A DNA stretch of 39,741 bases from a virus. Positions 2,872 to 39,741 of this stretch are shown here, one piece after another. The notes beneath the pieces were generated by a model, which searched no databases, was not told the DNA's origin, and saw nothing but the letters and a program-made list of their open reading frames with translations. Within the stretch, counting starts at the first letter, position 1, and each line of letters opens with the position of its first letter. The translations under genes were made by a program, and so were the position numbers. Location of the stretch: IMG/VR virus record IMGVR_UViG_3300019888_000011, positions 1-39,741 of that record. One strand, 5' to 3'.

Positions 2872-4365
2872 ATGCGTCTCCAGGAAATGCTGGACCGGCA
2901 GGCCGCCATCCGCACCGAGCTGTCCGCGATGGACGCGGACCCGGCCACCACCGAGGAGGGTGACGGCAATATCCGCGACACCCTCATTGACGAGTACGAG
3001 GCGCTGGAGAAGCTCAAGGCCCCGGTCATCCAGCGCATGGAGAAGATCAACCTGATCAAGCGCAACGCCTCCGACGGCGCCGGGCAGAACGGCGGCGGCC
3101 AGGGCGGCGGCGGCGAGGTGCAGCGCTGGGCGGGCGGCGCCGGCGGGACGCCTGAGTTCATGACGCGGCTGGACCCGTTCGCGGAGCTGGACAAGGTCCG
3201 TGACGGCCTGGTGCGCGGCTCGGACATGGTGGCCAGGTCGCTGTCGGTGATCGAGCTGCACGCCAAGCGCGGGCTGCTGCTGGACGACCGGGCGGAGGAG
3301 GCGACCCGCAAGGTCGCCTCCAACCCGCTGATCGCCCGGCATGCGTTGCTGACCGGCCACGACGAGTACGTGGACGCGTTCACTGCCTACCTGAACGACC
3401 CGATGGGGGAGGGGCTGCGCGCCGCGCAGCGGTCGCTGACCCTGGGCACCGCGTCGGGAGGGTTCCTCCTGCCGTACGTGCTCGATCCCACTATCGTGAT
3501 CACCTCGGACGGATCGATCAACCCGTACCGGGCACTGGCCGAGGTCAAGACCACCACCAGCAACGCGTGGCAGGGGGTCAACTCGGCGGGCGTGCAGATG
3601 GGCTGGCTGGATGAAGGCGGCCAGGCCACCGACAACACGCCGGTCGCGGGGCAGATCCAGATCTACCCGAAGAAGGCGGCGGCGTGGATCATCGCGTCGT
3701 TCGAGTCGAACGCTGACACCAACTTCGCCGACCAGCTCCCGCGCCTGCTGGCCGACTCCAAGGACATCCTGGAGGAGACCGCGATGGCCCGGGGCACGGG
3801 CGGCGTCGCCAACGCCGGGCAGCCGAAGGGCGTGCTGACCGCGCTCGGCACCGCCCAGCAGGTCAAGGCAGGCGGCTCGGCCGTGAGCGCGTTCACCGGC
3901 ACCGCCGGCGGCGCGAACGGCGGCGGGGTCGCCGACGTGATGGCGCTGAACTCGGCGCTGGGCGCCCGGTTCCGCATGTCCGCCTCGGTGGCGTGGGTGA
4001 TGAACATCACCAACATCAACCGGGTCCGGTCGATCGACCAGTACGGCGGCGGCGGGTTCCTGGCCAACCTGGCGCAGGGCCAGCCGCCGAACCTGCTGGA
4101 CAAGCCGCTGCGCGAGTCGCCGTCGCTGACCCAGACCCCCGGCACGGGCACCGCGCTGGCCGCTGCCGCTGCGGTGTTCGGGGACTGGTCCAAGTTCTAC
4201 GTGGTGGACAGGATCGGCTCCACGATGCTGTTCGACCCGCTGATCAAGTCGGCGGGCACGGCGAACATGCCGTCCGGCAACCAGGGCTGGTTCTACTACT
4301 GGCGGGTCGGGTCGGATGTGGCGACCCCCAACGCGTTCCGGTGGGCGACCGGCGGCACCGCCTGA
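2872..4365 (+). CDS. HK97-fold major capsid protein
   Basis: A phage capsid protein of 497 aa (Phage_capsid family, PF05065) that forms the icosahedral shell. Residues 1-65 are a charged coiled-coil delta/scaffolding region. A Gly-rich linker (about 70-95) follows, and then the HK97 core, with the typical GGFLLP entry near residue 195, ARGTGG near 305 and NQGWFYYWR near the end. The delta region is the expected substrate of the upstream protease. GGAAGGAG at 2855-2862 gives a strong ribosome-binding site 9 nt before ATG. It is followed by a strong hairpin and a long leader, so its expression may be set apart from the downstream genes. Confidence 0.95.
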   Translation: MRLQEMLDRQAAIRTELSAMDADPATTEEGDGNIRDTLIDEYEALEKLKAPVIQRMEKINLIKRNASDGAGQNGGGQGGGGEVQRWAGGAGGTPEFMTRLDPFAELDKVRDGLVRGSDMVARSLSVIELHAKRGLLLDDRAEEATRKVASNPLIARHALLTGHDEYVDAFTAYLNDPMGEGLRAAQRSLTLGTASGGFLLPYVLDPTIVITSDGSINPYRALAEVKTTTSNAWQGVNSAGVQMGWLDEGGQATDNTPVAGQIQIYPKKAAAWIIASFESNADTNFADQLPRLLADSKDILEETAMARGTGGVANAGQPKGVLTALGTAQQVKAGGSAVSAFTGTAGGANGGGVADVMALNSALGARFRMSASVAWVMNITNINRVRSIDQYGGGGFLANLAQGQPPNLLDKPLRESPSLTQTPGTGTALAAAAAVFGDWSKFYVVDRIGSTMLFDPLIKSAGTANMPSGNQGWFYYWRVGSDVATPNAFRWATGGTA

Positions 4366-4608: not shown

Positions 4609-6540
4609 GTGTTCAAGATCAAGATTCTGTGGCACAGCAACGCACCGGAGCCGATGTCGGCGACCGGGTACGGCGTGCAGACCGCGCTGTTCACCCGGCG
4701 GATCGCCGACCTCGGCCACGACGTGGCGATCAGTTGCATGACGGGGATCTCCGGGTTCCCGTCGCAGTGGGAGGGCCTGCCGTGCCTGCCGGGCGGGCTG
4801 ACCGCCTACTCGGGTGACATCCTGTCCGAGCACGCCCGGCATTTCTTCGGCCGTGGCCCCGGCCTGATCCTGGTCCATTACGACGCGTGGGCGATCGGCC
4901 CGGAGGCGCTGGGCGGGCACGCCACGGCGGCGTGGTCCCCGGTGCACTCGCAGCCGATGAGCGCGGGCGACCGGATGTTCTACGGCCTGTCCGGGGCGCA
5001 GCCGATCGCGTTCTCCCGGTTCGGCGAGAAGATGATGCGCGAGGCCGGGCTCCAGCCGGCGTATGTGCCGCACGGCGTGGACACCTCGCTGTTCCGGCCG
5101 CTGGACGCCGAGGAGCGGGTCACGGTGCGGCGGGCGCTGAATGTCCCCGACGGCGCGTTCGTGGTCGCGGTGGTCGCGGCGAACAAGGGCACCGACCCGC
5201 CGCGCAAGGCGTGGGGCGAGCTGTTCCACGCGTTCGCGGCGTTCCGCAAGCGGCACGGCGAGGCGATCCTGCTGGTGCACTCGATGGCGGCCACTCCCGA
5301 GGGGTGGGGGCTGGACATGCGCCCGCTGATCGGCTACCTGGGCCTGGGCGGCGCGGTGATCTTCTCCGACGACTACGCGCAGGTCGCGGGCCTGTACTCG
5401 GCGGGGTACGTGGCGGGGCTGACCGGCTGCGCGGACGTGCTGGCCAACCCGTCCTACGGGGAGGGGTTCGGCCTGGCCGCGCTGCAGGCGCAGGCGTGCG
5501 GGGTGCCGGTGATCGTCGGCGACAACTCGGCGCAGACCGAGCTGTGCGCCGCCGGGTGGAAGGTGGCGTGCCAGCCGTACTGGCACTGGCGGGACGCGGC
5601 GAACTGGGCGGCCCCGTCGATCAAGGGGATCACCGCCGCGCTGGAGAAGGCCTGGAAGCAGGCGCAGAACCCGGCCGCGACGGCGAAGGCGGCGCGGGCC
5701 GGCCGCCAGTTCGCCGAGGGGTATGACGCGGACCTGATCACCACCCAGTACTGGAAGCCGGTGCTGGAGATGCTGGAGCAGTACGCGGGCGCGGCGCGAG
5801 TCCGGCCGCCGGGCAACGGCGGCACGGTGAGCCTGCCGGTCGCCGAGGCCGACGGGCTGCGCTGGCTGGCGCGGGGCCGGCACACCGACGACTGGATCTC
5901 GGTCGGGCACGAGGACGCGCTGGCGCCGACCCTGGACGCGCTCCTGCCGGCCGGCGGGGTGCTGCTGGACGTGGGGGCGCATGTGGGCCGGTGGTCACTC
6001 CGCCTGGCTGCGAAGGCCTCAAGGGTCATCGCCGTGGAGGCCAGCCCGGACACCGCCGCCTGCCTGCGCTACCACATCGCCCTGAACAAGATCACTAACG
6101 TGGAGGTGGTCGAGGCCGCCGCGTGGGACGAGCACACCCGGCTGGACCTGTTCGACGCCAACCACCAGGTGACCGGCGGCTCCACCCGGGTGGTCGCGCC
6201 CGATGAGGCGGCCGAATCCGAGGGCGCGACGGAGGCGTGGCCGCTGGACGCGCTGCTGCTCGATGAGGAAAACCCGGCCGCGAACCGGGTAGACCTGATC
6301 AAGCTCGACGTGGAGGGCGCGGACCTGCATGCGCTGCGGGGGATGCGCCGCATCCTGGAGCTGTGCCGCCCGGTGCTGTTCATTGAGGACCACTCGATCT
6401 ACGGCTACTACCAGCACGATGAGCTGATCGCGCTGCTGGCCGAGCTGGGCTATGATTCCCAGCCGCTGATCGCCCAGCTCGCCGGGGACCGGTCGGCGCC
6501 GTACGTGATCGCCCGCCCCCGGGCGGAGGCGCCGGCGTGA
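4609..6540 (+). CDS. GT4 glycosyltransferase fused to an FkbM-family methyltransferase
   Basis: A two-domain enzyme of 643 aa. Residues 1-395 form a GT-B glycosyltransferase (family 4 type): N-terminal Rossmann domain with MSATGYGVQTA, and donor-site segment SYGEGFGLAALQAQACG with E285. The second Glu of the EX7E motif is replaced by Gln (Q293). Residues 410-640 are an FkbM methyltransferase: SAM motif LLDVGAHVGRWS near 452 and DLIKLDVEGADLHAL near 565. The likely role is to attach a sugar and O-methylate it. Phage glycosyltransferases beside capsid genes are known to decorate virion proteins, so capsid or tail protein is the inferred target. GTG 4609 has AAGGGAG only 3 nt upstream. Confidence 0.85.
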   Translation: MFKIKILWHSNAPEPMSATGYGVQTALFTRRIADLGHDVAISCMTGISGFPSQWEGLPCLPGGLTAYSGDILSEHARHFFGRGPGLILVHYDAWAIGPEALGGHATAAWSPVHSQPMSAGDRMFYGLSGAQPIAFSRFGEKMMREAGLQPAYVPHGVDTSLFRPLDAEERVTVRRALNVPDGAFVVAVVAANKGTDPPRKAWGELFHAFAAFRKRHGEAILLVHSMAATPEGWGLDMRPLIGYLGLGGAVIFSDDYAQVAGLYSAGYVAGLTGCADVLANPSYGEGFGLAALQAQACGVPVIVGDNSAQTELCAAGWKVACQPYWHWRDAANWAAPSIKGITAALEKAWKQAQNPAATAKAARAGRQFAEGYDADLITTQYWKPVLEMLEQYAGAARVRPPGNGGTVSLPVAEADGLRWLARGRHTDDWISVGHEDALAPTLDALLPAGGVLLDVGAHVGRWSLRLAAKASRVIAVEASPDTAACLRYHIALNKITNVEVVEAAAWDEHTRLDLFDANHQVTGGSTRVVAPDEAAESEGATEAWPLDALLLDEENPAANRVDLIKLDVEGADLHALRGMRRILELCRPVLFIEDHSIYGYYQHDELIALLAELGYDSQPLIAQLAGDRSAPYVIARPRAEAPA

Positions 6541-6605
6541 GCGGCTGGACGCAGCGCCGGGCGCTGGCGTCCTGGCGGCGGCTGGAAGCCGGGCGGGCCC
6601 AGTGA
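6537..6605 (+). CDS. Possible 22-residue coupling peptide
   Basis: A GTG at 6537 overlaps the stop of the glycosyltransferase gene (GTGA), and its TGA at 6603-6605 overlaps the GTG of the next methyltransferase (GTGA again). The peptide is short, Arg/Trp-rich and has no recognisable domain. It exactly bridges the only gap between the two enzymes, and its codons end mostly in G or C. It may be a real mini-protein or just a translation-coupling bridge. Confidence 0.35.
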   Translation: MSGWTQRRALASWRRLEAGRAQ

Positions 6606-7228
6606 GCGGCGGCTGGTGGGGCGGGTACGCCGAGGACGTCACGGTGCGGCAGGCGATGGCCTACGGCGCCAGCCAGGACCCGTGGGAGCTGACTAAGGCG
6701 CTGGAGCTGGTCGCCGCGCTGGACCCGAAGCTGATCATGGAGATCGGCTGTGACCGGGGCGGGACGCTGTACGCGTGGACGGCGGTCGCGCCGCAGGCGC
6801 AGGTGTGGGGCATCACCCTGGCTGACAACGGGGCGGGCACGGGCGGGTCGGGGCTGGCGCTGGAGACGCACGGGGCGAAGGTGCTGATCGGCGACTCGCA
6901 CGACCCGGCGACGCTGGCGTGGTTCGCCGACCAGATGGCCGGCCCGTGCGTGGACGTGCTGTTCCTGGACGGCGACCACTCAGCGGCCGGGGTCAGGCAG
7001 GACCTGGCGATGTACGGGCCGCTGGTCCGCGCCGGGGGGCTGATCCTGCTGCACGATATCTGCTCGGCGCCGGACGTTTTCTGCCCGGTGGAGGTCCGCC
7101 AGGTGTGGGAGGAGATCCACGGCCGCTACGCCACCGAGGAGATCCGCAACCCGGACTCGGGCGGTCAGGGCTGGGGTGTTATCCGCGTCGCCGCCGGCGA
7201 CGACTTCGCGGTCCAGGTTCCAGCCTGA
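6602..7228 (+). CDS. Class I SAM-dependent methyltransferase (CmcI/Methyltransf_24-like)
   Basis: A small-molecule or sugar O-methyltransferase of 208 aa. The Rossmann SAM-binding motif EIGCDRGGT lies at residues 47-55. FLDGDHSAAGVRQDL near residues 121-135 and LILLHDI near 150 are typical of the cephalosporin-hydroxylase/rhamnosyl O-methyltransferase (CmcI, PF04989) and Methyltransf_24 group. The start overlaps the stop of the preceding mini-ORF. Placed after the GT4-FkbM fusion, it probably methylates a second hydroxyl of the same virion glycan. The acceptor is not visible from sequence. Confidence 0.75.
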   Translation: MSGGWWGGYAEDVTVRQAMAYGASQDPWELTKALELVAALDPKLIMEIGCDRGGTLYAWTAVAPQAQVWGITLADNGAGTGGSGLALETHGAKVLIGDSHDPATLAWFADQMAGPCVDVLFLDGDHSAAGVRQDLAMYGPLVRAGGLILLHDICSAPDVFCPVEVRQVWEEIHGRYATEEIRNPDSGGQGWGVIRVAAGDDFAVQVPA

Positions 7229-7367
7229 ACACGCCCGTGCTGTCCCAGGTGATCTCGCAGGGCCCGTCCTCGGCGGCGCGCAGCAGGACGCCTTTCCGCC
7301 GCCACGGCGGCCACCGCCGCCACCAGGGGCGGCCCGCGTAGATGTATGCGCCCAAGATCTTGCCCAT
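7179..7367 (-). CDS. Minus-strand small protein with Arg/Trp/Pro-rich segment
   Basis: A 62-aa ORF running against the late operon. Third codon positions are almost all G or C from the start to about codon 49, and this bias is lost only where it overlaps the 3' end of the methyltransferase gene. The protein has a short hydrophobic N-terminus (ILGAYIYAG), then RPWWRRWPPWRR, then a conventional segment (EDGPCEITWDSTGVFRLE) and a poly-Arg tail. The W/R/P run resembles indolicidin- and tritrpticin-type membrane-active peptides. TACGGT stands 6 nt before ATG and there is no Shine-Dalgarno sequence, so leaderless translation is likely. No family was recognised. Confidence 0.55.
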   Translation of the reverse strand: MGKILGAYIYAGRPWWRRWPPWRRKGVLLRAAEDGPCEITWDSTGVFRLEPGPRSRRRRRRG

Positions 7368-7373
7368 GCCCCG

Positions 7374-7379
7374 ACCGTA
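7374..7379 (-). promoter_or_regulatory. Leaderless-type -10 element for the 62-aa minus gene
   Basis: On the minus strand TACGGT is followed by exactly 6 nt (CGGGGC) and ATG. TANNNT-N6-ATG is the standard layout of leaderless actinobacterial transcripts. The best -35 candidate, TTCGCC at a 17-nt spacing, is weak. Confidence 0.45.
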
Positions 7380-7394
7380 CCGAAGGAGCACGCC

Positions 7395-7829
7395 GTGGCG
7401 AAGAAGCTGATGGTCACCCAGCCGCATCACATGGGCGATGAGGTGATCCAGCCCGGCACCCTGTACGACATCCGGGCCGCGCTGCCGGACGGCATCTCGG
7501 TCCGCGAGGTGGACGTGGACCCGGACCCGCCCGAGCCGGGCTGGTCGCAGCCTGAGTACAGCCCCGGCGCGAACCCGCATAACACGGGGGAGCCGGCGCC
7601 GGACGCCGCCGAGGTGCTGGCCGCCGAGGACGGCGAGGGCGACGACGAGGGCGACGACGAGGCCGGGAAGCCCGCCGCCAAGCCGGGCGGCAAGACTCCT
7701 GACGGGGCACACGGCAGCGCTAGCGGACACCCCCCGGCCAAGACGGATCAGGGCACGAGCGAGACGGCCAGGCCCGCTGCGGGCAGCCAGGGGCCGCGCG
7801 GCGGCACCAGGCCGGCCGGGAAGGCGTGA
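7395..7829 (+). CDS. Small virion-module protein with acidic low-complexity tail
   Basis: A protein of 144 aa. Residues 1-50 form a compact region (KLMVTQPHHMGDEVIQPGTLY) like short SH3-like phage head proteins. The rest is disordered: Asp/Glu-Gly runs near 75-95, then Ala/Gly/Lys/Pro. The frame is open further upstream, but GTG 7395 is chosen because AAGGAG at 7383-7388 gives a proper site and the upstream part lacks codon bias. The function is unknown; position suggests a head or head-decoration accessory. Confidence 0.65.
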   Translation: MAKKLMVTQPHHMGDEVIQPGTLYDIRAALPDGISVREVDVDPDPPEPGWSQPEYSPGANPHNTGEPAPDAAEVLAAEDGEGDDEGDDEAGKPAAKPGGKTPDGAHGSASGHPPAKTDQGTSETARPAAGSQGPRGGTRPAGKA

Positions 7830-8158
7830 CCGCCCGGCTGGCGGCGCTGATCCACGGGCACATCGACTGGGAATGCCCGAACTGCCCGACCACGGTCACC
7901 ACGCCGCTGCTGATCCCCAACCGGTACCACGCCTGCCCGGGGCTGCACGGCCTGGTCGCGCCGATGGTCCGCGCCGGCACCGACTGCAAGATCACCGCGC
8001 TGCCCCGCGAGGACTACCTGCACGGGGAGATCCAGCGCACCGGGGACGACGGCCGCCCCTACGGCGGGGTGCGGACGGACCGGCCGGACGGGTCGAACGA
8101 CCTGCACATGTTCGCGCCGCTCGCGCAGGCGGACGCCGAGGAGATGGGGCTGCGGTGA
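7826..8158 (+). CDS. Zinc-ribbon-like hypothetical protein
   Basis: A protein of 110 aa whose GTG start overlaps the preceding stop (GTGA). Residues 17-42 carry a CPNC pair followed by YHACPGLHG, a plausible Cys/His zinc site, and another Cys is near residue 53. The rest is polar, with a charged C-terminus. It could bind metal for structure. It lies among head accessory genes, and its function is not recognised. Confidence 0.7.
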   Translation: MTARLAALIHGHIDWECPNCPTTVTTPLLIPNRYHACPGLHGLVAPMVRAGTDCKITALPREDYLHGEIQRTGDDGRPYGGVRTDRPDGSNDLHMFAPLAQADAEEMGLR

Positions 8159-8810: not shown

Positions 8811-9305
8811 ATGGCGTTCGGCACCGCGTCCAAGATTTTCCGCAACTTCCTGAAGGACTGCCACGACGGCACCTCCACCGCGCCGGGCACCGGGATCCTG
8901 CTGGCCACCGACGTGCCGAAATGCGCCCTGTACGGCAACACCGGCACCCCCGACCAGAACGCCACCGCTGTCTTGTCGGCCTACAACGGGGCCGCCTCCG
9001 CGTGGGTGACCGCCAACGAGATCACCGACGCCAACTGGGCCGCCGGCGGGCGGGTGCTGGTGCCGACCACCCACTTCGCTGACACCGCCGGGATCTTGTG
9101 GTACGACTCGGCGGACACCACCGGGGCCGGGAACGTGACCGTGGCCAACGTCTACGGCGTCCTGGTGTATGACGACACGATCACCACCCCGCAGGCCGAC
9201 ATCGGGATGTCCTACCACGCGTTCGCCACCCAGCCGGCCGGGGTGACCGCCGGGACGTTCACGGTCGTCTGGGACGCGCTGGGCGTAATCCGCTACACGC
9301 TGTGA
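8811..9305 (+). CDS. Putative virion structural protein
   Basis: A protein of 164 aa, beta-rich and Thr/Ala/Gly-rich, with the look of a virion protein (MAFGTASKIFRNFLKDCHDG at the start, then alternating hydrophobic/polar strands and few charges). It starts 1 nt after the previous stop. It precedes the virion glycosidase gene, so it may be its adaptor or a surface protein. No family could be named. Confidence 0.7.
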   Translation: MAFGTASKIFRNFLKDCHDGTSTAPGTGILLATDVPKCALYGNTGTPDQNATAVLSAYNGAASAWVTANEITDANWAAGGRVLVPTTHFADTAGILWYDSADTTGAGNVTVANVYGVLVYDDTITTPQADIGMSYHAFATQPAGVTAGTFTVVWDALGVIRYTL

Positions 9306-9317
9306 CCTGGCCGGCGG

Positions 9318-10661
9318 ATGCCGTACCTGACGGGGATCGCCGGATCCGGGACCGGCCAGTACCTCACTGACGAGACAGGCGCCCCGTACCTGCTGCGGGG
9401 GGACACGATATGGGGCCTGCCGATCATGGCAGGCTCGGCGGGCGGGTCCGCGACCTGGCAGTCCGACATCGACACCTACTGCGCGACCCGGGCCGCGCAG
9501 GGTTTTAATGCGATGTACATCGCGGCGGTCGGCACCACCAACTACTCCCTGTCCGCCACCAACGTGAACGGCGACACCTGGGATAGCGTCTCGCCGTTTG
9601 TCGGCGGCGATCCGGGCGTGCTGAACGACACGTACTGGCAGCGGGTTGATTACATCGTGGCGGCGGCGCGGGCGGCGGGCATGACGGTGCTGATGAACAT
9701 CGCGGCGTCCTACGCGAACAACAACGCGGGCGGGCCGCTGAACGGCAAGACCGGCACCCAGTGGACGAACTACGGCACCGCGCTCGGCAACCGATACAAG
9801 GCCGCCAGCAACGTGACGTGGTTCCTGGGCGACGACTACTTCGATGACAGCAACACCAACTACGGCAACGCTGTCGCCGCGATCAAGGCGACTGGGGACA
9901 CGCACCTATTCACGTACGAGAACTACCCGGAATCCACCAGCCGGGAGGACATGAAAACCCCGTCGAACAAGCTGGCCGGCGGCACCGCAAACGCTAATTT
10001 CAGCTTCGCGTATTCCTACAACGTCAGCTATCTCGGGATTGAGGACGCCTGGACGGAGGCGTCCCCGATCCCGCCGATACGCGGTGACGGGTTCTACGAC
10101 AACGACTCTGTAGGGCAGGCATTCAACCGGGGCCTGCTGTGGTGGGCGCTGTCGTCGGGCGCGCGCGGGTTCATCTACGGCCGGGAAGCGATCTGGTCCT
10201 GGCCGCCGACCGCCCTGGCCGCCCTGACCACCAACCCGGTTGACAACACCGATTTCAACAACATCTGCAACGCCTTCGCCACGCTGATGGACTGGAACAA
10301 GCTAGTCCCCGACACGGCCAGCGCGCTAGTGACGGCAGGCCGGGGCACGCACGCCGCCGAGTTCGTTTCCGGCGGCAGCGGCGGCAGCTACAGCAGCGGC
10401 AACACCTACGTCACCGCGTCGAAGACCCCCAGCGGGTCACTGGCCGTCATCTACATCCCGAACGCGGCTGCGGCGATCACCGTGAACGGGGCGCTGATGG
10501 CCGCCGGGTACGGCGCGAAATGGATGGACCCGGTGACCGGCGCGACCACTTCGGCGACGATCGGGGCCACCTACACCCACGCCGGGGCGAACTCGGCGGG
10601 CGGCGCCGACTGGGTGCTGATCCTGGCCAGCCCGCCGTATGCGACCTGGACAGCGCCGTGA
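9318..10661 (+). CDS. DUF4038/apiosidase-like glycoside hydrolase, virion-associated
   Basis: A polysaccharide-cleaving enzyme of 447 aa. Residues 13-110 (YLTDETGAPYLLRGDTIWGL, then DTYCATRAAQGFNAMY) are typical of the DUF4038 TIM-barrel family (PF13204), which includes GH140 apiosidases. WFLGDDYF near residues 169-176 matches the barrel strand that usually reads WILGGD. The last ~90 residues (KWMDPVTGATT to WVLILASP) match the small C-terminal beta domain that accompanies the family (PF12904). There is no signal peptide. Its place among virion genes suggests a capsid- or tail-bound depolymerase. A/T-ending codons are more common here than in neighbours. The exact substrate and catalytic acids are not certain. 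Confidence 0.75.
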   Translation: MPYLTGIAGSGTGQYLTDETGAPYLLRGDTIWGLPIMAGSAGGSATWQSDIDTYCATRAAQGFNAMYIAAVGTTNYSLSATNVNGDTWDSVSPFVGGDPGVLNDTYWQRVDYIVAAARAAGMTVLMNIAASYANNNAGGPLNGKTGTQWTNYGTALGNRYKAASNVTWFLGDDYFDDSNTNYGNAVAAIKATGDTHLFTYENYPESTSREDMKTPSNKLAGGTANANFSFAYSYNVSYLGIEDAWTEASPIPPIRGDGFYDNDSVGQAFNRGLLWWALSSGARGFIYGREAIWSWPPTALAALTTNPVDNTDFNNICNAFATLMDWNKLVPDTASALVTAGRGTHAAEFVSGGSGGSYSSGNTYVTASKTPSGSLAVIYIPNAAAAITVNGALMAAGYGAKWMDPVTGATTSATIGATYTHAGANSAGGADWVLILASPPYATWTAP

Positions 10662-22571: not shown

Positions 22572-22853
22572 CTACCCGTAGACGACGGGCAGGTCACCTT
22601 CGGGCAGCAGCGCCGCCAGCCGGTCGTACTCCGGGCACCGGAAGTACCTGAAGCAGTGATGCGACTCCAGGTGATCCCAGAACGCCCGGCGCAGCGGCGC
22701 GGCCAGCATCTGCGCCACGACCTCGAACCCCACATGGGCAAGCGTCGCGGGCGGCGGGTCCTCGTGGAGATCGCAGCGGCCGTCGCTGGTGATGTCCAGC
22801 AGTTTCTCGCTGGACGGGAAGTACGACCAGTGCCGCCTGTAGCAGAGCGCCAT
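22572..22853 (-). CDS. Minus-strand small protein, unknown
   Basis: A 93-aa protein encoded against the late operon, filling the gap after the minor tail gene and ending 1 nt from its stop. The sequence looks like a folded cytoplasmic protein, rich in His, Cys, Arg and aromatics (MALCYRRHWSYFPSSEKLLD, then FWDHLESHHCFRYFRCPEY). The HH-C-C cluster near residues 65-74 may bind metal. No domain is recognised. The hexamer GACGAT stands 6 nt before ATG, a near match to the leaderless -10 of the other minus genes. Codon third positions are G/C-rich in this frame. Confidence 0.65.
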   Translation of the reverse strand: MALCYRRHWSYFPSSEKLLDITSDGRCDLHEDPPPATLAHVGFEVVAQMLAAPLRRAFWDHLESHHCFRYFRCPEYDRLAALLPEGDLPVVYG

Positions 22854-22913: not shown

Positions 22914-23171
22914 TCAGCCCCGGTGGAACCCGGGCCGCCGCTCAGTGCCAGGAGCGAACCGGAGAGGCCGGTCACTTCCGCCGAAGGTGACCGCATCAAA
23001 GGCCGCCGAGACTGCCGTGCCGCCCGTGCCGCCCTTGAAGTTGTTGACGATGAGCGTGCCGGGCCTGTCCTCGGCCTCGGGCTCGGGCTCGCACGCCTCG
23101 CGGGTCACCTGGCGCGCCCACGACGCGATGGCCATGCGCTCCTCCCAGGTGGGGCGCTCCTCTGCGGTCAT
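22914..23171 (-). CDS. Minus-strand small acidic protein, unknown
   Basis: An 85-aa protein whose start is only 23 nt from the divergent start of the tail-tip gene. It begins with an amphipathic helix (MTAEERPTWEERMAIASWAR, ending near residue 25), then an acidic stretch (EPEPEAEDRPG) and a Gly/Thr loop (NFKGGTGGT). Codons are strongly G/C-ending in the first 60 positions and less so near the end. TATGCT stands 6 nt before ATG and no Shine-Dalgarno sequence is visible, so leaderless expression is likely. No family was recognised. Confidence 0.6.
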   Translation of the reverse strand: MTAEERPTWEERMAIASWARQVTREACEPEPEAEDRPGTLIVNNFKGGTGGTAVSAAFDAVTFGGSDRPLRFAPGTERRPGFHRG

Positions 23172-26100: not shown

Positions 26101-27373
26101 GCCGCCGGTCCTGCCGCCGGCGGCGCAGGTGCTGACAGTCGCCGACTGGTCGTTCGTGATCGGGCCGCGCCAGCCTGCGGGCGGGCACGCGCTGGCGCTG
26201 ACCGAGGCCCGGAACCGGACGGCGGTGTTCCGCTGCGATCCCGGCACCTCGCATGAGGCGTCGTTCGACATTGACGGCCGCAGCGTGCAGGCGTCCGGGT
26301 TCGCCGAGCTGATCAGCGACCTTCAGGTGATCCGCAACGGGCAGATCCTGGCGGCGCTGCGGATCGTGCCGACCGCCGACCAGCTCGATGCGATGCAGCA
26401 TGTGGTGTCGGTGACGGCGCGGGACTACCGGGAGGTGCTGCGCCGCCGGCTGGTGCTGCCGGGGGACGCGCTGACCTGGAACGGCCCGGACGTGGTCGTG
26501 AACTCCGGTGACTTCTCGGGCGGCGGCGGCGGCGGCGCGGGCCCGCCGTTCACCGACCAGGCGGTGATCGCGTGGCAGATCATCCAGGGCGTCCAGGCCC
26601 GCAACGGCGGCGACCTGGGGATCGTGCCGGGCGCCGGGCAGGCCACCGGCCACGGCCCCGACTACGCCATCGGCGTCGGCGATTTCGCCGGCGACGCGAT
26701 CGACGCCCTGGCGCAGACGGCCAACGGGTTCGACTGGGACATCACCGCTTACGGCCCGGCGGACCTGCGGCTGGACATCTGGTCGCCGTACCGGGGGTTT
26801 GACCGGGGCGTGATCCTGGAGCACGGCGGCGGCCTGGTCGCCAGGACGGGCCGCACGGTGGACCCGTCAGCGTTCGCGAACGCGTGGCTGGTGACCGGCA
26901 GCCAGGCCAGCGGCACCAGCAACACCGGGTTCATCGGCAGCGGCGGGGGCGGCGGGGGCGGCAGCGCCCCGCCGCCGAATTGGATCGTCGTGTCAGAGCC
27001 GGGACTGCCCGCTGACCCGGCGGGCCGCTGGGATCAGGTGGACGGCACGTCGCTGGCGACGTTCCCGGCGGTCAGCGCCCGCGCCTACCGGGACCTGGCC
27101 AACGGCCTGGCGGTCATCCCGTCGTATGTGATCGAGCTGTATCCCGGCAAGTGGGGCGGCCCGGGCCACATCTGGCTCGGCGACGCGGTCACGGTGCGGG
27201 TCATGTCGGGGCGGCTGCGGGTCAACGACAAGCTGCGGGTCAGCGAGATCGCGGTGACGATCGGCGAGGAAGGCCAGGAGCAGGTGACCCTGACCGTGGG
27301 CCGCGCGCCGCTGGGCCCGCACCGGCTGATCGCCAGGATGCTGCGGCGCATCCAGCACCTGGAGCTGCGGTGA
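23195..27373 (+). CDS. Tail-tip protein with LamG-like, CBM-like and two tandem glycosidase domains
   Basis: A protein of 1392 aa. Residues 1-225: concanavalin-like beta sandwich ending in WWLDDLAVST. Residues 230-400: CBM_4_9-like module ending in DVDDAQLGPS. Residues 407-665 and 683-945: two related TIM-barrel glycosidase domains, each starting TLAQAIT-W; they share HEP (E496, E770) and PFG-WE-N (E587, E859) as acid/base and nucleophile candidates, resembling GH26/GH5 enzymes. A Gly/Pro linker with PPPPPP (about 960-975) leads to residues 980-1392, a tip domain like Gp37/minor tail proteins (VVSVTARDYREVLRRR, then ALAQTANGFDWDI). Role: bind and cut host glycan during adsorption. AAAGG precedes ATG by 7 nt. 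Confidence 0.8.
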   Translation: MTTRGNSFEGIGNGVTVTAANSGGVSGDAFDSVTIPAGCTVISDNTHAAHGGQACKQQIGGTALGCAVNWLLTAAGTVYYRAYLYVPAFPSATIRVVNVRSGASFAAAMALTATGKLQMQASTGGQMAITTASVPTGAWFRVEGFFIASATAGQARVKLFTSMDSTSPAETKTSAATFNTLANFDQTQIGIASNVATTGPWWLDDLAVSTAGYVGPFVTGGGGGGGTAGKTGAFLKLINFNALTGQSATFDGGNGNWTPAGNSSIANSAVSPHNGSGAMRLTSLGPSAGLMDAASCTAANITTQGKPCTAGDTISCSAWLKAVTVARNCQVGAAFYTAAGVLCTGTNPVMVAGGATNSTSAYTLVQGQVTTPSGVSAAFCRLHVRVNATAGTGEQHDVDDAQLGPSTLAQAITQWTALSARGLDVRREYFAAGQYGTGAFAITADLTADAAAGRKVCLTLRPPYNPVSATDRTNMATFLASCAAAGLVMDIALWHEPFYSGLSAAQYIAMVQYYGPTIQAAGYPVVFCTANSAIKNNAENTYYPGDAYIDKVATDYYAQGYVSGDTLDDAASIADAASPRKPFGVWELNASTDTGSGQTTLQGTNYFNYLRLFFNARLVAGKTNADLLIFNADSNAGQETPITMPGDYRIALWQAQYDAGAVTVGAGGAVGAYLNPSKFGAGTTLAQAITDWQSVTSRPLDARRVYFTPLQIPAAITTDLLADQAAGRKVCMSLRPDFGPPTTSAAAALDTFLSSCKAAGLVADVALYHEPNQGMSMAQFIEAFQFYAPTIKQYYPRVFCTSSYFVQHGGGNAWYPGDAFVDKIATDIYASEYDGGIRLDLPASLADAATPPKPFGIWEFNSSTDAAQGQTQAQSATFFTYLKQFFQGRLASGKPNCDLLLFNSDSNLSQETPIITAGDYRVGEYQDLYDGLTTPPVGSQTRPLAVAVTLTVTVSAGLAGGIPIGPPPPPPVLPPAAQVLTVADWSFVIGPRQPAGGHALALTEARNRTAVFRCDPGTSHEASFDIDGRSVQASGFAELISDLQVIRNGQILAALRIVPTADQLDAMQHVVSVTARDYREVLRRRLVLPGDALTWNGPDVVVNSGDFSGGGGGGAGPPFTDQAVIAWQIIQGVQARNGGDLGIVPGAGQATGHGPDYAIGVGDFAGDAIDALAQTANGFDWDITAYGPADLRLDIWSPYRGFDRGVILEHGGGLVARTGRTVDPSAFANAWLVTGSQASGTSNTGFIGSGGGGGGGSAPPPNWIVVSEPGLPADPAGRWDQVDGTSLATFPAVSARAYRDLANGLAVIPSYVIELYPGKWGGPGHIWLGDAVTVRVMSGRLRVNDKLRVSEIAVTIGEEGQEQVTLTVGRAPLGPHRLIARMLRRIQHLELR

Positions 27374-27698
27374 GGCCGTCCAGGCCGGCCGGGATCACCC
27401 CGGCGTAGCCCGGGTGATCGGCCCACACGCCGGCTATCGCGATCAGCACCAGGCCGAAGGCCACCGACGACGCGGCGGCGGCCACCATGGCCGGGCTGGC
27501 CGGGTCCGGGTCGATGGCGATCTGCTCGGCTACCGTCTCGGCGTTGACGCGGACCGCTACCAGGATTTTCCGCTTGGCCTCGGCCTCGGCGAGCAGGCGG
27601 TGCCCGAGCACGGCCAGGGCGCCGCCGCCGGCGATCAGCTCCCGCGCCGCCGCCTCGTCCTCGTCCCGGCGCGCGGCGCAGAACTTCTGCAGGTCCAT
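27240..27698 (-). CDS. DUF6221-like minus-strand protein
   Basis: A 152-aa protein. Residues 1-55 (MDLQKFCAARRDEDEAAAR, then LLAEAEAKRKIL) resemble the N-terminal part of the actinobacterial DUF6221 family, which has no known function and is common in actinophages. Residues 72-92 (VAAAASSVAFGLVLIAIAGV) could be a membrane segment, which is not usual for that family. The last 45 residues overlap the 3' end of the tail-tip gene and lose the codon bias, so they are probably a poorly conserved tail. TAGGGT lies 6 nt before ATG. Confidence 0.6.
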   Translation of the reverse strand: MDLQKFCAARRDEDEAAARELIAGGGALAVLGHRLLAEAEAKRKILVAVRVNAETVAEQIAIDPDPASPAMVAAAASSVAFGLVLIAIAGVWADHPGYAGVIPAGLDGLTAAPGAGCAAASWRSAGAGPAARGPRSGSPAPGLPRRSSPRSR

Positions 27699-36456: not shown

Positions 36457-36482
36457 CTCCCTCTCCACTACCCATGATACCA
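36457..36482 (-). promoter_or_regulatory. Promoter/RBS cassette, copy 3
   Basis: Minus strand: TGGTATCAT (36474-36482) followed after 7 nt by GGAGAGGGAG (36457-36466). GTGTG lies upstream as in copies 1 and 2. It sits between the stop of the 122-aa gene (36484) and the start of the 58-aa gene. Confidence 0.7.
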
Positions 36483-36483
36483 G

Positions 36484-38665: not shown

Positions 38666-38691
38666 CTCTCTCTCCACTTCCCATGATACCA
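38666..38691 (-). promoter_or_regulatory. Promoter/RBS cassette, copy 1
   Basis: Minus strand: extended -10 TGGTATCAT (38683-38691), 7 nt, GGAGAGAGAG (38666-38675). Upstream it shares ATGAGTGTGT with copy 2. The -10 lies inside the left arm of a 16-bp inverted repeat. Confidence 0.7.
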
Positions 38692-38725
38692 GTTCACACA
38701 CTCATATGCGAACTGGTATCATGGG
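38680..38725. repeat. 16-bp perfect inverted repeat around the promoter (operator candidate)
   Basis: CCCATGATACCAGTTC (38680-38695) and GAACTGGTATCATGGG (38710-38725) are exact reverse complements, 14 nt apart. Both arms contain TGGTATCAT reading outward, so an extended -10 exists on each strand. It could be an operator for a dimeric regulator or a divergent promoter pair, but no + strand gene follows. Confidence 0.75.
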
Positions 38726-39506: not shown

Positions 39507-39532
39507 CTCTCTCTCCGCTTCCCATCATACCA
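39507..39532 (-). promoter_or_regulatory. Promoter/RBS cassette, copy 2
   Basis: Minus strand: TGGTATGAT (39524-39532), 7 nt, GGAGAGAGAG (39507-39516), then ATGACCGAG. The 10 nt ATGAGTGTGT upstream are shared with copy 1. The remaining 39533-39741 hold no supported gene. Confidence 0.7.
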
Positions 39533-39741
39533 GTAAACACACTCATGTGGGACCTGGCCTGGCCTGGGATTACACCCAAACCGGGGGCGAGCGCGCGGCC
39601 ATCGTGGCAGCGTGGCCGGGAACTGATCCCCGATCGTGCCCGCGACCGGCCCCCGGGCGGAAGGAGGCGCTGCGCCTGGTCAACGCTGACCGGCCCGCAG
39701 CGGCCCGCCCGGGCTGCCTGACGTCAGGACACGCGAATGAT

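Follow-up and report, generated by a model that had tools for sequence, protein, structure and literature searches.

Within the head-tail operon of a soil actinophage, the reverse strand at positions 7179-7367 quite probably carries a genuine small accessory gene, a moron, which has its own putative leaderless start and in which the Trp/Arg block is not the functional core of the product. The gene lies in a 39.7-kb IMG/VR virus record that was analysed over its whole length and is referred to here as the window (W in comparisons with related loci). Its 62-residue product, read from 7367 to 7179 (-), is designated P0001.

Setting and coding pattern of the reverse-strand gene

The window comprises a forward head-tail module encoding a protease, the major capsid protein, a fused glycosyltransferase/FkbM methyltransferase, a CmcI-type methyltransferase, tail proteins, a tape measure protein and an endolysin; none of the window proteins scanned was recognised as an integrase or repressor, and Rfam and tRNA scans of the window gave no match. 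P0001 is placed in a slot of this module. The left border is the gene of the CmcI/Methyltransf_24-type methyltransferase (6602-7228 (+); Pfam PF13578 and PF04989), which is syntenic in relatives; the right border is a forward gene (7395-7829 (+)) with its own AAGGAG at 7383-7388 and a GTG start 28 nt from the P0001 ATG, weak homologues of which occur in the related loci L009, L004 and L011. The spacer between the methyltransferase end at 7228 and the GTG at 7395 measures 166 bases and houses P0001, the final 50 bases of its gene (7179-7228 (-)) overlapping the methyltransferase gene tail to tail. Two enzymes in the structural region are worth recording in their own right: the fused GT4 glycosyltransferase and FkbM methyltransferase (4609-6540 (+)), which directly follows the major capsid gene, precedes the CmcI-type methyltransferase, is retained in most close relatives and may modify the capsid; and an Apiosidase-like glycosidase with a putative collagen-binding-type domain (9318-10661 (+)), found in several relatives.

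As described in the initial annotation, the reverse-strand ORF starts with an ATG (7367-7365), ends with a stop codon at 7181-7179, contains the Trp/Arg segment RPWWRRWPPWRR and closes with a run of arginines (SRRRRRRG). Its length is unremarkable here (43 ORFs of at least 30 residues in one 5-kb stretch). Outside the overlap, G or C occupies codon positions 1, 2 and 3 in 28/46, 29/46 and 44/46 cases, as is typical of genuine genes in the window (p = 1.5e-5 when the A/T positions of the frame are permuted). Over the last 16 codons, which lie opposite the 3' end of the methyltransferase gene, this pattern is lost (8/16), and the poly-Arg tail (RRRRRRG) is therefore set by the methyltransferase gene. 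The earlier argument that G/C-ending codons support coding thus holds for the larger part of the frame and fails for its last 16 codons; nor does the pattern alone choose the strand, because one forward frame shares the G/C-rich column. On the window's codon model the ORF scores -15.3, below zero, mainly because of its Trp/Arg content and the overlap, and it was not called by a simple gene finder. In four comparisons with related sequences, W's own frame was the best of six, narrowly; the pairwise similarities are weak, and for these divergent pairs the two strands could not be told apart by counting substitutions at each codon position.

Start signal and leaderless layout

A putative -10 hexamer, TACGGT, is located at 7374-7379 (-), i.e. 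at exactly -12 to -7 relative to the P0001 ATG with six bases between, in a leaderless arrangement. In Actinobacteria, leaderless genes, which make up more than 20% of all genes, are marked by TANNNT about 12 bp ahead of the start (PMC3160421; PMC3898074), and TANNNT lacking a -35 box is the principal promoter signal mapped in M. tuberculosis (PMC3898074). P0001 has the TANNNT core at this distance and shares with those genes that a -35 box is not needed (PMC3160421, PMC3898074); none was found for P0001. The leaderless TANNNT genes of Actinobacteria are mostly cellular, however, whereas P0001 belongs to a phage and is carried as cargo, in reverse orientation, by a late operon.

The hexamer recurs at the same place in the lineage. 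All reverse ORFs of at least 40 residues with a coding-like pattern, located in gaps between forward genes of the window and its related loci, were examined for TANNNT upstream of their starts. It is found at -12 in 25 of 572 such starts and at -13 in 9, and no other offset exceeds 6. Because some records among the related loci overlap or are nearly identical, the 25 starts cannot all be counted as independent, although almost every one has a different sequence. Among the controls, TANNNT stands at -12 in 4 of 5,724 antisense ORFs inside forward genes (<0.1%) and in 2 of 637 forward genes. In most of the 25 reverse ORFs, 18-47 nt separate the start from that of the next forward gene, and known types among them are a ribbon-helix-helix protein (L030), a helix-turn-helix protein (L041) and an HNH-related match (L072). 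The form TACGGT-N6-start occurs in W, L010, L007, L009 and L003, with TATGTT in L008 and TATGCT in L101; in L053 the hexamer is TATGGT and lies one base farther from the start. The hexamer at -12, together with this enrichment for reverse ORFs in gaps, points to a putative promoter of P0001's own.

The window itself holds four TANNNT-N6-ATG sites, compared with 1.07 expected; three lie in operon gaps (starts at 7367, 23171 and 27698), where each of the three reverse genes begins 24-30 nt before the next forward gene. The second gene (22917-23171 (-)) encodes 85 residues and has TATGCT-N6-ATG, with 24 nt to the following forward start; the third (27243-27698 (-)) encodes 152 residues, has TAGGGT-N6-ATG, with 30 nt to the following forward start, and belongs to DUF6221 (Pfam PF19730, E = 6.9e-9). 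This third gene lies between the gene for a minor tail protein and the forward gene that comes after it. Since one site thus heads a DUF6221 gene with G or C at 103 of 108 third positions, the TANNNT-N6-ATG layout marks real genes here. A terminator-like site was not detected in 6900-7600 by a scan that is based on T-runs and may miss GC-rich actinobacterial terminators, and for this reason P0001 is classed as moron-like.

Three further observations concern such signals elsewhere. The second reverse gene forms, with 22572-22853 (-), a two-gene reverse cassette within the tail operon, whose first gene starts with TATGCT-N6-ATG and which has no family match. In L045, TACGGT-N6-ATG at position 3075 (+) also heads a 65-residue forward ORF just upstream of the gene corresponding to 7395-7829. 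In the right arm of the window, three near-identical promoter-like repeats, CTGGTAT[C/G]ATGGG[T/A]AG[T/C]GGAGAG, lie just upstream of reverse genes (36461-36483, 38670-38692 and 39511-39533, all (-)), where none is expected by chance.

Relatives of the slot and the C-terminal motif

Related loci were collected by searches with the capsid protein (15, later 80) and with the zinc-ribbon-like neighbour encoded at 7826-8158 (50 more). Their gene order is kept: capsid, glycosyltransferase/methyltransferase, methyltransferase, slot, and the 7395-, 7826- and 8811-type genes. The slot is filled in W, L004, L007 and L010 and closed in L002, L003, L005, L008, L009, L014 and L015; P0001 is accordingly an addition between two genes that lie side by side in related phages. 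The slot of L010 holds a 69-residue reverse ORF that resembles P0001 (WW.R..RR....A...GP....WD..G...E) and is likely a diverged homologue, judging from the alignment (BLASTP E = 3e-4; shuffle p 0.0002-0.0008; score 65 versus a best of 64 among 13,214 other ORFs). Different reverse proteins of 109 and 121 residues, mutually 40% identical, fill the slots of L007 and L004, with a third relative in L053. These proteins, P0003 (L007) and P0004 (L004), were considered as members of the P0001 family, since like it both end in ..LEP, but were rejected because the alignment is weak.

A profile built from W and L010 had its best new reverse-strand matches in L101 (E 0.007) and L009 (E 0.049). Both ORFs later proved to have TANNNT at -12, a feature invisible to the profile; motif and hexamer were thus found separately and agree. 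With a wider profile, a reverse ORF of L008 joined. The likely relatives differ in their N-termini and share a C-terminal motif, [FWC]-x-[IV]-x-W-D-x-x-G-x-x-[RK] (..TITWDxxGxFRL), which in P0001 spans residues 37-51, CEITWDSTGVFRLEP (7215-7259 (-)), and is common to the reverse ORFs of L008, L009, L010 and L101. Structure prediction, suggested in the initial annotation, placed two C-terminal strands in this region (37-41 and 47-51) but left the Trp/Arg block disordered, in a model of low confidence (pLDDT 56); a viral fold search with the model gave nothing under E 0.001.

Beyond the related loci, the homologue search proposed with the 62 residues revealed no close relative: none was found in phages (tblastn, E up to 10), IMG/VR or GTDB genomes, and Pfam and PHROGs contained no family for P0001 at E up to 10. 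There was likewise no match for a DNA search of the slot in phages, for the two-sequence profiles A4 and A7 in IMG/VR, for the profile A6 among solved structures (E up to 1) or for the capsid profile in GTDB genomes. In phages, the related reverse proteins P0002, P0004, P0006 and P0007 gave only a chance-level match, and a single-sequence scan of IMG/VR found no relatives of the neighbour genes, although it did find some of the capsid gene.

A motif of the same kind closes the 164-residue product of the forward gene 8811-9305 (+) (..GTFTVVWDALGVIRYTL), a protein without Pfam or PHROG match, and the profile of the reverse family matches many forward proteins of this type (E 1e-5 to 0.02). The likeness to the P0001 hairpin extends over only about 15 residues, and such short likeness does not establish common descent; on sequence grounds, it hints at the 8811-9305 protein as a possible partner of the hairpin. 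A more far-reaching reading, to which we assign little probability, is that the late operons of this actinophage lineage recurrently carry leaderless reverse cargo at a near-fixed distance before forward starts and that in several cases the cargo shares a hairpin copying the 8811-9305 C-terminus, which would bind or interfere with that protein and might, for example, block the assembly of a competing phage.

Alternative readings and biological meaning

Three other explanations of the ORF have to be weighed. That it is spurious, a GC-rich spacer between forward genes which happens to be open on the reverse strand, would account for the lack of a close homologue, the weak pairwise similarities, the failure of the codon model to call it and the absence of a spacer at the slot in the seven relatives where the slot is closed; it is nevertheless unlikely, because 44/46 G/C third positions stand beside ordinary first and second positions, TANNNT sits exactly where fewer than 0.1% of antisense control starts have it, and two further reverse genes of the window, one of a known family, have the same layout. 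The coding signal might instead stem from a forward mini-gene in the spacer, for instance a 34-residue frame from the GTG at 7237 to 7341 that shares the G/C-rich column: every long gene around is forward, and the codon log-likelihoods are only 2.3 nats apart (-167.6 sense versus -169.9 antisense). This origin is extremely unlikely, given that the forward frame stops at 7341 and the P0001 pattern runs on to 7367, that the frame lacks a Shine-Dalgarno sequence, that its 34-residue protein has no match in the related loci and that the spacing of TACGGT would be left unexplained.

A different question is whether the gene is real but its product is a cationic Trp/Arg peptide active on membranes or nucleic acids, as proposed from its resemblance to the cathelicidin-type peptides indolicidin and tritrpticin. 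With a net charge of +11, five tryptophans in the protein and the segment RPWWRRWPPWRR, of which L010 retains WW and several arginines (counterpart of the core, RWWDRLLFRRR), the proposal has an evident basis; we consider it very unlikely to be correct all the same. The core consists of three in-frame 9-bp units, TGGCGGCGG / TGGCCGCCG / TGGCGGCGG, which are translated as WRRWPPWRR (7296-7322 (-); seen in the sequence and by a direct-repeat search), and neither segment nor charge is kept in the relatives. The Arg tail derives from the antisense overlap, and the net charge falls to +4 without it; values in the likely relatives range from -8 to +2, the relatives in L008, L009 and L101, which have no Trp/Arg segment, being acidic (-4, -4 and -8). 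A conserved cationic Trp/Arg core is thus absent from the family, and in the predicted model the block is disordered. Nor does the segment exceed chance, because 12-mers with at least four Trp and at least four Lys/Arg occur at 72 separate places in the six frames of 1.1 Mb of related loci; two to three would be expected in 40 kb, where one place was found. Read by eye, P0001 contains no signal peptide or membrane segment, its N-terminus MGKILGAYIYAG being too short for a signal peptide. The likeness to indolicidin and tritrpticin concerns local W/R/P composition only; in contrast to cathelicidin-type peptides, P0001 has no secretion leader or precursor processing that could be seen, its segment is not conserved and it has a separate C-terminal motif. 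The Trp/Arg resemblance is best taken as repeat composition. What stands of the initial annotation is a probably expressed phage gene, as indicated by the codon pattern, the leaderless promoter arrangement and weak but independently supported relatives; the cathelicidin-type reading does not. An action of P0001 on membranes, DNA or other phages is no more than a possibility.

The preferred reading, a small accessory gene reversed in the operon, could operate in the following manner. TACGGT would serve as a SigA-type -10 box, from which a leaderless mRNA would begin at or next to the ATG, and P0001 might thereby be expressed separately from the late operon, for instance soon after infection or during lysogeny. 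The product would be a small protein with a variable, replaceable N-terminus and a C-terminal beta-hairpin that may bind a partner; the Trp/Arg block would be a lineage-specific repeat expansion. Such a protein may modify the host or exclude other phages, as other morons do.

Elements of this kind have precedents. P0001 is comparable, as a reverse-strand moron, to pid of Salmonella phage P22, with no sequence relation implied; pid has a canonical Shine-Dalgarno sequence and a Rho-independent terminator, whereas P0001 shows neither and has the leaderless arrangement instead (PMC3573128). In Cluster O mycobacteriophages, small leftwards genes interrupt the rightwards structural operon, and one of them, Corndog 53, has a promoter, PL2, whose predicted transcript is leaderless (PMC4351075). 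Corndog 53 is described there as a putative DNA-binding protein, whereas P0001 matches no family, and the sections consulted offer no counterpart for the recurrent head-to-head spacing of 18-47 nt in the window and related loci (PMC4351075). The kind of element is therefore known, but within the reach of the searches both the protein family and the wide spread of the pattern across the lineage appear to be new.

Small reverse genes in phage structural operons are easily lost by gene finders in GC-rich genomes, as P0001 was missed by the codon model, and P0001 shows that a GC-rich repeat can mimic an antimicrobial peptide. The TANNNT-N6-start rule, with its clean control, provides a direct way to find such genes in actinophage metagenomes, and would give a catalogue of small accessory proteins, a class whose members in other phages target host physiology or keep rivals out.
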